From Oscillibacter sp. (lineage in GTDB: Bacteria > Bacillota > Clostridia > Oscillospirales > Oscillospiraceae): 51,518 nucleotides of DNA. Position numbers and translations under genes: made by a program. The notes under the pieces are model-generated. The model had not been told where the DNA came from, searched no databases, and saw only the letters and a program-made list of their open reading frames with translations. Below, piece by piece: positions 3,597-32,035 of this stretch. How positions within the stretch are numbered: position 1 is the stretch's first letter; each line of letters starts with the position of its first letter. The stretch is taken from the NCBI GenBank assembly GCA_017937405.1, contig JAGBDS010000032.1, forward strand, positions 1 through 51,518, given 5' to 3'.

Positions 3597-3662
3597 TTAT
3601 TCCACAGTGACGGATTTTGCCAGATTTCTGGGCTTATCAATGTCACAGCCACGCTGCAGCGC
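3597..3662 (-). pseudogene. Extra copy of the last 22 codons of glmS
   Basis: Read on the minus strand this encodes ALQRGC...AKSVTVE and a TAA stop, identical in protein to the end of the intact glmS (3802-3867). The codons differ at more than half of the positions and every difference is synonymous, including AGG to CGT and AGC to TCC. It is therefore a piece of a formerly functional glmS of different ancestry, not a fresh duplication. It is separated from the intact tail by a 139-bp hairpin element. Confidence 0.85.
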
Positions 3663-3801
3663 TGCCCCACAAAAACTCCGTTTTTGTGGGGACCCCGCAT
3701 TTGACTCAAATGTGCAGGCAAAGCCCGCCCATTTCAAGGTTTTGCCCCTTGGGCAAAACACTTGAACGCGCCACTCGGCGCGGGTGCGGCGCCTGGGCAG
3801 C
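3663..3801 (-). repeat. Hairpin-rich repeat element, copy A (after glmS)
   Basis: About 139 bp of stem-loops. It holds a CCCCACAAAAA / TTTTTGTGGGG hairpin, CATTTGACTCAAATG, then a block (plus strand) AAGCCCGCCCATTTCAAGG joined to the hairpin GTTTTGC...GCAAAAC with flanking CTTG, and a GCGCC/GGCGC hairpin. Copy B at 8974-9142 shares the order and the core sequence. In both places the element lies between two copies of the host gene's own 3' end. No protein-coding capacity is visible. Confidence 0.75.
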
Positions 3802-5640
3802 TCATTCTACCGTCACGCTCTTCGCCAGATTCCGGGGCTTGTCGATGTCGCAGCCCCTTTGCAGCGCCACATAATAGGCAAACAGCTGCAGCGGCACCAC
3901 GCCCAGAGAGGGCTGGAGGATGGGATGGGTGTCCGGCACCACAATGGTGGAATCGGCGGTCTTTTCCATCTTCTCCTTGAAGGTCTCGGTGGTGACAGCC
4001 AGAACTTCGGCGCCCCGGGCCTTGACCTCCACCACGTTGCTCATGGCCTTGTCGAACAGGGCGGCATAGGTGCCCAGAGCCACCACCAGAGTCCCCGGCT
4101 CGATCAGGGAGATGGTGCCGTGCTTCAGCTCGCCGGAGGCATAGGCCTCGGAGTGGATATAGCTGATCTCCTTCAGCTTCAAAGAGCCCTCCAGGCCCAT
4201 GGCGTAATCCAGGTTGCGGCCGATGAAGAAGATGGAATTATGGTTGAAATACCGGGAGGCGAAATACTGGACATCCTCGAAATGCTCCAGGAGACGTCTC
4301 ATTTTCTCCGGCAGCACCTGCATTTCCGCCAGAATGGCGTCGTACTCGCTCTTTTCCACCGTGCCCAGCAGATCCGCCAGGTACAGGCCGATGAGGTCCA
4401 TCAGCACCAGCTGGGTCGTATACGCCTTGGTGGTAGCCACGGCGATCTCCGGGCCAGCCCAAGTGTACAGCACGTCGTCGGCCTCCCGGGCAATGGAGCT
4501 GCCCACCACGTTGACAACAGCCAGCGTCCGGGCACCCCGGCTCTTGGCCTCCCGCATGGCGGCCATGGTGTCCAGCGTCTCGCCGGACTGGCTGATGACG
4601 ATGACCAGGGTGTTCTCGTCCACCAGCGGGTCGCTGTACCGGAACTCGGAGGCCAGGTCCACCTGCACGGGACGGCGCAGCAGCCGCTCCCAGCTGTACT
4701 TACTGACCATGCCCACATGATAGGAGGAGCCGCAGGCGATGATGAAGATGCGGGAAATGTTTTTGACGTACTCCGCAGTGAGCTTCACATCGTCCAGAAC
4801 CACCCGGCCATCCCGGACACGGGGAGACAGGGTCTTGCGGACAGCCTCCGGCTGCTCCATGATCTCCTTGAACATGAAGTGGGCATAGCCGCCCTTTTCC
4901 GCAGCGGAAACATCCCAGTCCACCTGGCTGTGCTTCTTTTCCAGGGGATTCATCTCGCTGTCGAATACGTCGATATTCTCCGCCGTGACGACGGCGATTT
5001 CTCCGTCCTCCATGTACACCACATCCCGGGTGTGCTTGATGATGGCAGTCACATCCGAGGCAATGTAGTTGCCGTTTTCACCATAGCCCAGGATCAGCGG
5101 GCTGTCCTTCCGGGCGGCGATGAGGGCGTTAGGGTAATCGGAGCAAATTATGCCGAAGGCATAGGAGCCCTGGATACGCCGCAGGACACGGCCCACGGCC
5201 TCCAGCATATTGTGGCACTCATTGTAGTGGAATTCCAAGAGCTGGGCCACCACCTCGGAGTCGGTATCTGAGGTGAATTTCACGCCATGGCGCTGGAGCT
5301 GTTCCTTGATCTCCAGATAGTTTTCAATGATGCCGTTGTGGACCAGAGCGATCCGCCCATTCTCACTGACATGGGGATGGGCGTTGATGTCGTTGGGCTC
5401 TCCGTGGGTGGCCCAGCGGGTATGGCCGATGCCCAGCGTGCCTTCCAGGTCGGCACCGCCGTGGGTCAGGTCGCTGAGCACCTGCAGACGGCCCTTGGCC
5501 TTTTTCACCTGCAGGCCCTTCGCCTCAGAGCGGACGGCGATACCGGCGGAATCGTAGCCCCGGTACTCCATCCGCGCCAATCCGTCCAGCAAAATAGGGG
5601 CCGCCTGTTCGCGGCCCGCAAAGCCAATAATTCCGCACAT
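3802..5640 (-). CDS. glmS: Glutamine-fructose-6-phosphate aminotransferase (isomerising)
   Basis: 612 residues, the normal length. It makes glucosamine-6-phosphate from fructose-6-phosphate and glutamine, the first step toward UDP-GlcNAc and peptidoglycan. The protein starts MCGIIGFAG, whose Cys2 becomes the N-terminal nucleophile of the glutaminase domain (about 1-240: YRGYDSAG, GHTRWATHG). Two SIS sugar-isomerase domains follow, with ACGSSYH, SQSGETLDT and the C-terminal DKPRNLAKSVTVE. AGGAGG precedes the ATG; an in-frame extension upstream runs through the ribozyme and is rejected. A glmS ribozyme precedes the gene. Directly after the stop comes repeat element A and a second glmS tail. Confidence 0.97.
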   Translation of the reverse strand: MCGIIGFAGREQAAPILLDGLARMEYRGYDSAGIAVRSEAKGLQVKKAKGRLQVLSDLTHGGADLEGTLGIGHTRWATHGEPNDINAHPHVSENGRIALVHNGIIENYLEIKEQLQRHGVKFTSDTDSEVVAQLLEFHYNECHNMLEAVGRVLRRIQGSYAFGIICSDYPNALIAARKDSPLILGYGENGNYIASDVTAIIKHTRDVVYMEDGEIAVVTAENIDVFDSEMNPLEKKHSQVDWDVSAAEKGGYAHFMFKEIMEQPEAVRKTLSPRVRDGRVVLDDVKLTAEYVKNISRIFIIACGSSYHVGMVSKYSWERLLRRPVQVDLASEFRYSDPLVDENTLVIVISQSGETLDTMAAMREAKSRGARTLAVVNVVGSSIAREADDVLYTWAGPEIAVATTKAYTTQLVLMDLIGLYLADLLGTVEKSEYDAILAEMQVLPEKMRRLLEHFEDVQYFASRYFNHNSIFFIGRNLDYAMGLEGSLKLKEISYIHSEAYASGELKHGTISLIEPGTLVVALGTYAALFDKAMSNVVEVKARGAEVLAVTTETFKEKMEKTADSTIVVPDTHPILQPSLGVVPLQLFAYYVALQRGCDIDKPRNLAKSVTVE

Positions 5641-8925: not shown

Positions 8926-8973
8926 TCACACCAACTGGTCGTGGGGCAGGCCGAAGCTCACCGCAATGGCCGT
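8926..8973 (-). pseudogene. Duplicate of the last 16 codons of mazF
   Basis: 48 bases identical to the end of mazF (9143-9190), encoding [15 protein letters not shown] plus TGA. Upstream of the block the sequences diverge at once. The two copies flank repeat element B, the same arrangement as at glmS, but here the copies are identical, so the event is recent or the copies have been homogenised. Confidence 0.85.
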
Positions 8974-9142
8974 GTCGTCATCCCGCCGCGGCTTTTCAAG
9001 CCACAGCGGGAACCCTGCCATTTCACTCAAATGGTCAGGCTAAGCCCGCCATTTCAAGGTTTTGCTCCGCAAAACGCTTGGCGCCGCTTTTGCGGCGTGC
9101 AAGGCGGCCACGGCACAGCCTCTTTCCACCTCGTATCTTGGT
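8974..9142 (-). repeat. Hairpin-rich repeat element, copy B (after mazF)
   Basis: About 169 bp. It shares with copy A (3663-3801) the CATTTCACTCAAATG hairpin, the block AAGCCCG-CCATTTCAAGG and the GTTTTGC/GCAAAAC hairpin flanked by CTTG. It also has a CCCGC/GCGGG hairpin and a GCGCCGC/GCGGCG hairpin at equivalent places. It lies between two identical mazF 3' ends. No coding potential is seen. Confidence 0.75.
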
Positions 9143-9511
9143 TCACACCAACTGGTCGTGGGGCAGGCCGAAGCTCACCGCAATGGCCGTATCCACCTTG
9201 TTCATCACATGTTCCTCCACGTGGCCCATCCGCTCCCGCAGGCGCTTTTTGTCCAGCGTCCGCACCTGCTCCAGCAGCACCACGGAGTCCCGGCTCAGGC
9301 CGCAGTTTTCATCCACGGGAAGGTCGATATGTGTGGGCAGGCGGGCTTTCCCTGTCTGAGAGGTGATGGCCGCCGCGATCACCGTGGGGCTGTACCTGTT
9401 TCCGGTGTCATTCTGAATGATGAGGACCGGACGGACGCCTCCCTGCTCGCTGCCCACCACCGGGGAGAGGTCGGCATAATAAATATCGCCGCGCTTGACA
9501 GTCGTATCCAC
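9143..9511 (-). CDS. MazF/PemK family mRNA interferase (EndoA-like toxin)
   Basis: 122 residues with the family core [31 protein letters not shown], the [12 protein letters not shown] strand and [13 protein letters not shown]. Members cut mRNA at short ACA/UAC-type sites. The GTG at 9511 lies ten bases after GGAG; a GTG three codons earlier is too close to that site. In Bacillus the order is alr-antitoxin-toxin. Here alr lies upstream but no antitoxin gene fits in the 182-bp gap. The 3' end is duplicated downstream around element B. Confidence 0.9.
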
Positions 9512-9534
9512 AAAGTTCACACTCCGCCGAAAGA

Positions 9535-15576: not shown

Positions 15577-15730
15577 CTCGAGGGGAAGCAGGCTTCCCCT
15601 CGACCTCCCCCACCACCAGCCTGCGGACTGGTGTGTGCGCCCCAAGGGCGCACGGGTCGGGGAATTTTCGCCACGTACACGCCGCGGCGAAAATGATTGA
15701 AATTTCTTTCGCCGCATAGCGACGAAATTC
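15577..15730 (+). repeat. Stem-loop repeat, type II copy 1, between pheS and pheT
   Basis: The 189-bp gap carries a chain of hairpins: GAGGGGAAGC/GCTTCCCCTC, CACCAG/CTGGTG, TGCGCCC/GGGCGCA, and a 34-base block at 15664-15697 in which ATTTTCGCC pairs with GGCGAAAAT around ACGTACACGCCGC. A further TTTCG/CGAAA stem follows. The 34-base block recurs with one mismatch at 31977-32010. It lies inside the pheST transcript. Confidence 0.8.
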
Positions 15731-31916: not shown

Positions 31917-32035
31917 GAACCCCCACCAGTGACGTCGGTCACTGGTGAACGCCGCCCAAGGCGGCTGAGTCAATGTATTTTCGCCACGTACATGCCGCGG
32001 CGAAAATGATGGGAACTTTTGTCGTTTTTTCTATA
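31917..32035 (+). repeat. Stem-loop repeat, type II copy 2
   Basis: Same order of parts as the copy between pheS and pheT: CACCAGTGAC/GTCACTGGTG hairpin, a GCCGCC/GGCGGC hairpin, then the 34-base block at 31977-32010 (ATTTTCGCC and GGCGAAAAT around ACGTACATGCCGC). The block differs from copy 1 at one position. Here it lies between metQ and a decayed MATE gene. Confidence 0.8.

Follow-up and report, generated by a model that had tools for sequence, protein, structure and literature searches.

A dispersed hairpin element with duplicated gene ends and a candidate site-matching guide in Oscillibacter and related bacteria

Duplicated gene ends at mazF and glmS

The window analysed here, the whole 51,518-nucleotide stretch of contig JAGBDS010000032.1 of an Oscillibacter sp. 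assembly (GCA_017937405.1), carries on its minus strand a mazF gene (9520..9143), whose identity is backed by the Pfam family PF02452. The final 51 bp of this gene (copy A) are present again downstream of it (copy B) with 50/51 identity, which up to one mismatch is the arrangement of 48 identical bases around a 169-bp gap that an earlier note on this DNA had reported. The 166 bp that separate the two copies (8977-9142) are predicted to assume a hairpin-rich fold (z -5.85, equalled by 0/200 shuffles), and their core is common to an element found 3' of glmS (96/131 positions identical, gaps included). There, the gene tail is likewise seen twice, in copies of 76% identity that encode the same residues, with all 12 of the 12 differing codons compared being synonymous. 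The parts of both units are collected in Table 1. A second dispersed repeat of a different family (70 bp, 77% identical) also occurs in the window at 15642-15711 and 31955-32024, with one copy lying between pheS and pheT. In three other genomes (G082, G013 and G008, at loci L169, L183 and L076; G and L numbers stand for genomes and loci throughout) elements are found on both sides of mazF, the upstream one following alr in G013 and G008.

Table 1. Parts of the mazF and glmS units in the window
Feature	Position	Strand	Basis
mazF gene-attached tail (copy A), the 5' arm of the unit, stop codon included	9143..9193	-	sequence comparison
Target site in mazF across the insertion point, the exact point being ambiguous by a few bases	9186..9200	-	
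mazF unit-borne spacer and guide region, homologous to the mazF unit of G007 and not to native downstream DNA	9100..9142	-	
mazF guide segment, complementary to 9186-9200 with mismatches; weak, 1/40 controls being as good	9100..9114	-	
mazF scaffold hairpin H1	9081..9098	-	
mazF scaffold hairpin H2	9055..9080	-	
mazF scaffold hairpin H3	9029..9054	-	
mazF scaffold hairpin H4, with 4 bases between its end and copy B	8981..9012	-	
Orphan mazF tail (copy B), running on into native downstream DNA	8926..8976	-	
glmS gene-attached tail (copy A); some other species are closer to it than the closest relative is	3802..3867	-	
glmS guide segment, not significant alone in this genome; beats all 40 controls in G013	3784..3793	-	
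glmS scaffold H1-H4	3665..3782	-	
Orphan glmS tail (copy B), probably native: most similar to the empty site in the closest relative, then the native terminator region	3597..3662	-	

Comparison with other species at glmS bears on which of the two copies is native. In the closest relative (G007), which has no element at this gene, 57/63 positions match copy B as against 51/63 for copy A, and the DNA downstream of glmS continues copy B (alignment score 141 vs 7); in two more distant species 56/63 positions match copy A as against 49/63 for copy B. This pattern suggests that the gene-attached copy A probably came with the element and that the orphan copy B is probably the native end pushed downstream, in keeping with the proposal of the earlier note that the element carries the tail of its host gene and leaves the gene intact. 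G101 and G096 have full-length matches to the glmS unit, and in G013 and G081 the scaffold of the unit is altered. The G013 unit (L142) has about 65 bp extra between the scaffold hairpins H2 and H3, and the glmS scaffold of G081 (L150) is longer too.

A dispersed family of hairpin elements

A DNA search of the source genome, a draft of 112 contigs, recovered 11 matches to the element, 9 of them with a duplicated flank, and a covariance model built from the copies found by DNA search gave 16 matches in the same genome, with the mazF and glmS copies included in the family. Among 60 genomes of relatives (the source genome included) 19 were positive, the highest copy number in a single genome being 37. 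Eighty regions from seven genomes of the genus (among the matches listed) and the 16 loci of the source genome together yielded a genus set of 112 matches. A second model was applied to a sample of 300 genomes, covering 106 genera of the bacterial family, with at most 11 candidates scored per genome; at E <= 1e-5 it was positive in 86 of these genomes and 42 of these genera. Four single-contig genomes contain 32, 47, 19 and 13 matches. The scaffold pattern is found, for example, in Oscillibacter valericigenes An860 and An890 and in Dysosmobacter drafts. Viral contigs gave no exact match to the pattern and plasmids no element, and a phage search returned one partial match of 41 bp in an unannotated faecal phage record.

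The consensus fold of the scaffold consists of four separate hairpins (H1-H4). Across 109 distinct sequences 96.1% of the stem cells are paired and 36 of the 37 pairs have changed on both sides; shuffled and slid controls lie far below this level of pairing, which is read from an alignment fitted to the model and hence biased toward pairing. In the same fitted alignment the stems tolerate G-T far more than A-C combinations (179 vs 23). Searches of Rfam at the element in 11 loci, with E-values up to 5, gave no match, to group I and group II intron families included, the gathering-level matches found being tRNAs. An M-box (magnesium) riboswitch lies on the contig of the uvrB copy in the same genome (L003:321-483).

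That two unrelated genes should share the duplicated arrangement by chance had been judged unlikely from the window itself, and the genus set excludes it: in eight home-genus genomes 101 of the 109 testable copies (one of the 112 matches being cut by the locus end and two near contig ends left out) are flanked by a direct repeat scoring at least 25, as against 1 of 333 random places, with 8 of the 109 lacking a duplication. When members of tandem arrays are removed, 84/91 copies are duplicated, and in other genera (35 matches in 26 loci) this holds for 25 of the 34 testable copies, so that the duplicated flank which the earlier note proposed to look for at other copies is present both in the genus and beyond it. 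The same duplications are seen in single-contig genomes, which argues that they are not assembly artefacts. The flanking repeats are 30-117 bp long and are mostly gene ends, and in most copies the orphan copy begins within -2..+1 of the scaffold end, that is, at a sharp 3' junction.

Gene calls, which were made with a simple codon-usage caller trained on eight window genes and not with a standard gene finder, place 75 of the 101 duplicated copies at a gene 3' end on the 5' side of the element and 13 at a gene start, in antisense orientation; a further 12 are without a gene call and 1 is spanning. At one of the 13 gene-start copies (L091) the intact gene seemingly lies on the other side. A complete tRNA-Leu(CAG) flanks the element on each side in G013 and G007. 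Thus, the earlier view that the element goes with gene ends stands for the 3' ends that make up most of its sites, and has to be widened to gene starts and a tRNA-Leu gene. A scan of 30 of the 39 family representatives with NCBIfam (MazF and GlmS being checked by Pfam) matched the targets LepA, UvrB, MurE, LeuS, Alr, GuaB, RsfS, MutS, MurA, EF-G, formate-THF ligase, RsmH, PrfB, ModB, MutL, AspS, Pta, Pgi, PheT, HisS, InfB, Hpt, MutS2, RNase HI and a phage terminase; matches to UppP, FabK and a HinT-like protein fell short of the curated cut-offs. The target motif is a weak GGR before the insertion site.

In 79 copies compared, 214 of the 302 differences between copies A and B fall at third codon positions, the codon changes being synonymous in 203 cases and non-synonymous in 64, and the reading frame of copy B is kept to a stop near that of copy A in 60 of 68 sense copies. 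Diversity-generating retroelements are marked by adenine-specific differences between repeats and by a reverse transcriptase; this candidate was rejected, as the differences here are mainly third-position and synonymous and the source genome is without an RVT_1 match.

Tandem spacings in three single-contig genomes are 198-231 bp in 17 of 22 cases, with some arrays repeating at about 137-161 bp. The sharp borders and this array period indicate units of about 205 bp, with no endonuclease ORF inside, in the loci read, and not the longer ordinary transposon that the earlier note had named as the finding that would speak against it. Arrays with a period of ~137-140 bp in place of the usual 198-231 (L063, L065 and L169, in G013 and G082) repeat the scaffold apparently without the gene-end arm. 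A degenerate copy after an rsfS-type gene (L273; G060:C1:590148) has no recognisable orphan tail and is possibly a decaying unit. MITEs have terminal inverted repeats that join their two ends and a short target-site duplication of fixed length; the long flanking repeats seen here, being mostly gene ends, speak against this class.

Complementarity between the guide and the insertion site

The segment between the gene end and H1 often includes a reverse-complement copy of the gene sequence that surrounds the insertion point, and within it a guide of ~13 nt, just before the hairpin scaffold, is complementary to the gene sequence across the insertion site. This guide scores above all 40 within-gene control windows in 55 of 98 copies, and a score of 9 is reached by 52 of the 98, the corresponding share among 3920 controls being 1.7%. 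Two entries among the 55 have to be discounted as guides, since L063:2128 forms pairs with the hairpin of its array neighbour and L024 is off-centre; by a stricter count, confined to non-array copies with distinct arms, 49/81 beat all controls and touch the site, where about 2 are expected. Among 55 copies picked for a score of at least 8.5 near the site, Watson-Crick pairing is 87-98% at positions -3..+5 and near background beyond -7 and +8. The guide lies at a nearly fixed distance from the insertion point (median 85 nt, IQR 81-90, range 75-127, n=41), which again implies a unit of about 205 bp, and the stem formed by guide and target is part of the predicted fold in 44 of 51 units with good guides. 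In other genera 14 guides beat all controls; the arms measure 80-94 nt in 11 of these and 47, 101 and 131 nt in the remaining three, the last of which is off site.

In the window itself the guides are weak, with scores of 7.5 at mazF and 5.5 at glmS, where 16/40 controls are as good, and the guides of the mazF and glmS relatives in G007 and G013 beat all 40 controls. The two window copies belong to the 43 of the 98 without a guide beating all controls. A unit of replacement gene end, guide and four-hairpin scaffold is well supported as a property of the family, with the guide not detectable in every copy.

Guides often change along with their targets. Orthologous units differ at 39 target positions, of which 22 retain pairing in both units, 15 of them with an altered guide, and the other 17 have lost it in one unit or in both. 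In the cells where orthologous targets differ, 57/78 of the own pairs form as against 35/78 of the cross pairs (49 vs 16 for Watson-Crick pairs), a comparison in which the genome pairs are not independent and the fitting of the guide position to its own target favours own pairs. Twelve distinct compensatory events between guide and target were counted between species. Because the pairing is centred on the insertion point, its distance from that point is nearly fixed and guide and target co-vary, the most economical reading appears to be that the guide chooses the site. It fits the gene-attached copy at 17 sites and the native copy at 13; since it matches the former as often as the latter, the empty site is not singled out by the guide.

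The nearly constant arm length is also what an ordinary long target-site duplication would give, in which a transposase without known identity makes a staggered cut of ~80 bp, selection leaves the gene-sparing insertions and the complementarity is a by-product; in a few units (L263, L055) near-perfect repeats indeed run past the stop codon. In several others (e.g. L097, L102), however, the part of the arm after the stop is unlike the native downstream DNA while the coding part is 97-100% identical, and the complementarity is specific to the insertion point, so that we regard such a duplication as quite improbable.

Pairing with host sequence at the insertion site, present here in part of the copies, is likewise a feature of introns. 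In an intron-like element the guide would align two exons, namely the gene before copy A and the native tail B, in the manner of a group I internal guide; splicing would restore the native transcript, and the arm would serve unspliced transcripts. The guide does span both sides of the junction, the starts of A and B can pair with the same guide bases, and the frame kept in copy B and the third-position bias noted above are as this reading would have it. Moreover, the Tremella fuciformis mitochondrial introns, as far as their published account goes, have an inserted 5' end that repeats the following exon, and partial foreign gene replacement has been proposed for them (PMC7315562); as described there they differ in being of kilobase size, with no guide-scaffold unit and with splicing presumed. 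Against an intron-like element are the missing Rfam match up to E=5, a scaffold of only ~115 nt with no sign of a catalytic core, and the missing RVT_1 match in 5 of 8 element-rich genomes. Further, 13 of the 101 copies are antisense to the gene and one family sits at a tRNA gene, where splicing of the host transcript could not work in this way. We therefore hold it to be highly improbable.

Inheritance, candidate machinery and a proposed explanation

The 79 copies fall into 39 gene families, of which 22 occur in more than one genome, and for 18 of these 22 the site positions of two or more genomes agree to within 4 nt; orthologous genes thus have common sites. Of the 62 copies whose nearest scaffold could come from their own gene family, 36 do find it there, as against 1.7 expected, and 7 of 79 copies find it in their own genome, as against 11.6 expected. 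Thus, scaffolds group by gene and not by genome, as gene-specific lineages would, and this nearest-scaffold comparison of 79 copies gave no sign of recent jumping or copying between genes within one genome. Copies A and B have identities of 0.80-1.00 within a genome, often 0.95 or more, as against 0.69-0.95 for the A copies of orthologous units between genomes, which points to homogenisation of the two copies within a genome. Since recombination between the two copies would restore the gene, vertical descent with loss could operate beside transfer, and much of the distribution is accounted for by vertical inheritance combined with frequent loss. In the prfB pair of G018 and G024, a single example, the gene body is nearly identical up to the site, after which arm and scaffold diverge; the LepA pair is confounded by a tandem array, its downstream value of 1.00 being an alignment artefact. 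Faster evolution of gene tails in element-bearing species was set aside as weak, since the tails of element-free species are also more variable.

These observations also bear on a serious rival, in which the guide has no part in targeting and is one strand of a stem needed in cis, as RNA or DNA structure, closed over the host gene end. The units would then be ancient, with vertical inheritance separately at each gene and frequent loss through recombination of the two copies, and the duplication would be a relic of a rare founding event. Such a cis-acting stem accords with the joint change of guide and target, the presence of the stem in most predicted folds, the grouping of scaffolds by gene family and the similarity of the copies, usually greater inside one genome than across genomes, which is the outcome expected of gene conversion. 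It leaves unexplained the centring of the pairing on the insertion point, the nearly constant arm length, and the closeness of glmS copy A to other species, which exceeds that of the gene body; we consider it rather unlikely.

Candidate machinery was sought by protein-family searches in 24 genomes of the genus (8 element-rich, 3 low-copy and 13 element-less), and none of the four families Y1_Tnp, RVT_1, IS110 and TnpB was found in every element-rich genome. RVT_1 is matched in 3/8 element-rich genomes, with no match in G000, G004, G018, G024 and G028 (drafts of 76-95% completeness), and a group II intron or retroelement was rejected accordingly. An IS110 bridge-RNA element and a TnpB guide RNA were rejected likewise, the IS110 recombinase being above cut-off in only 5/8 and TnpB (PF07282) in only 2/8. 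Y1_Tnp matches, several of them fragments or weak, occur in 7/8 element-rich, 0/3 low-copy (G006, G012, G023) and 4/13 element-less genomes, the element-rich exception being G008 (95% complete, 23 element matches). A scan of 27 Y1 and reverse-transcriptase loci gave three chance-level matches and no locus that held an element.

The Y1 distribution would suit an IS200/IS605-type single-stranded DNA element that is non-autonomous, has a guide of unusual length and is mobilised in trans by a Y1 transposase, as would the tolerance of G-T in the stems of the fitted alignment. The order of the parts also agrees with the left end of IS608, as far as PMC5934647 describes it: cleavage site, linker, and a guide at the 5' foot of a hairpin, which base-pairs with the cleavage site and sets the target. 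The guide of the present units appears to pair with a putative cleavage site in the same manner, with 13 nt instead of 4; IS608, on the same account, differs in its tetranucleotide guide, in coding for a transposase and in having no duplicated gene end, and one element-rich genome is without Y1. We consider this origin improbable, given that Y1 matches are absent in G008, G006, G012 and G023 and are fragments or weak in several others, that no element lies within about 1.5 kb of the ten Y1 loci scanned, and that the orientation of 43 units follows the gene and not replication.

The last point rests on G186, where 14 plus and 3 minus units lie in the positive-skew half and 2 plus and 28 minus units in the other, and on G060. 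Elements of the IS200/IS605 family have a replication-strand bias that is independent of gene direction. With the replichore borders placed by sampling 20 stretches in each genome, and without seven of the G186 copies, the 43 classified units comprise 33 co-oriented with the gene and 2 opposed to it in the leading orientation, and 4 co-oriented and 4 opposed in the lagging one. Thus, the strand bias in both genomes goes with target genes on the leading strand and was rejected as independent evidence of replication-coupled insertion, and a bias of the IS200/IS605 type was not found, with 2 of 6 gene-opposed units being leading-oriented (few cases).

Other systems resemble the present one in single features. 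To our knowledge, REP sequences have neither gene-end arms nor a target-matching guide. In published accounts, REP sequences with their REP-associated tyrosine transposases are alike in being palindromic repeats dispersed over bacterial genomes (PMC2817692, PMC8266576). The bridge RNA of IS110, as far as it is described in PMC11208160, is alike in being a structured RNA whose guides across the target core decide the insertion site; it differs in that its loops guide both strands and the donor and in its recombinase, which is not found in all element-rich genomes. The closest parallels are the IS608 guide and the Tremella introns discussed above and, likewise from fungal mitochondria, mobile ORF elements carrying a foreign gene C-terminus, which have been described at atp6 of Allomyces and at atp6, atp9, cox2 and nad3 of Glomus (PMC3630166). 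On that account the insertion lies near the 3' end, the replacement C-terminus is divergent in nucleotides and conserved in protein, and the native C-terminus is displaced downstream; a foreign replacement end with a displaced native one is also what is seen at glmS, the gene examined. These fungal elements are mitochondrial and include an endonuclease ORF of ~1 kb, whereas the present units lack an ORF, have a guide of 13 nt and a scaffold of four hairpins, and occupy many different target genes. We could not match the arrangement of replacement gene end, own-site guide and hairpin scaffold, which is absent from each of the three closest parallels, among known bacterial elements, and, as the earlier note had supposed, no description of it was found in open-licence PMC papers (preprints lying outside this scope).

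In light of these comparisons, we propose that the family is probably a novel type of element making use of base pairing where it is inserted. Each unit is inserted at a defined point near a gene end, in most units 25-92 bp from it, and its 5' arm of ~80-90 nt repeats the host gene end with the stop codon (or the start region, or a whole tRNA); since the arm supplies the gene end, the host gene would stay functional. The guide of ~13 nt is complementary, in more than half of the units, to the host sequence between about -6 and +7 relative to the insertion point, and the scaffold of four hairpins adjoins the displaced native gene end with its 3' end. Base pairing of the guide with the target strand may choose or hold the site, while arm, guide and scaffold would travel together as one gene-specific unit and persist, now and then passing between species at the same site. 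To this explanation as a whole, a gene-specific unit of ~205 bp inserted near a gene end with guide-target pairing choosing or holding the site, we give about even credence. A stronger version, held tentatively and with somewhat less than even credence, is that of a natural ORF-less, guide-programmed insertion element, in which guide and scaffold, as RNA or single-stranded DNA, would recognise a 13-nt site in the last ~90 bp of a gene and install the unit together with a replacement gene end. Such an element could live in essential genes without cost, and its enzyme would be either new or a known one in an unrecognised role.

For annotation, the family carries the risk that orphan tails can pass for short genes and that gene ends can be foreign in origin. 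If the guide does not direct insertion, there would still be a family-wide structured element that closes a target-matched and co-changing stem over the ends of LepA, InfB, EF-G, MutS, MutL, UvrB, GuaB, GlmS, PheT and others. If the proposed explanation is true, this is a bacterial mobile element that gains entry to essential genes by supplying their ends itself and that bears a sequence complementary to its target, and, should the guide direct insertion, common gut commensals would harbor a new programmable DNA-insertion chemistry.
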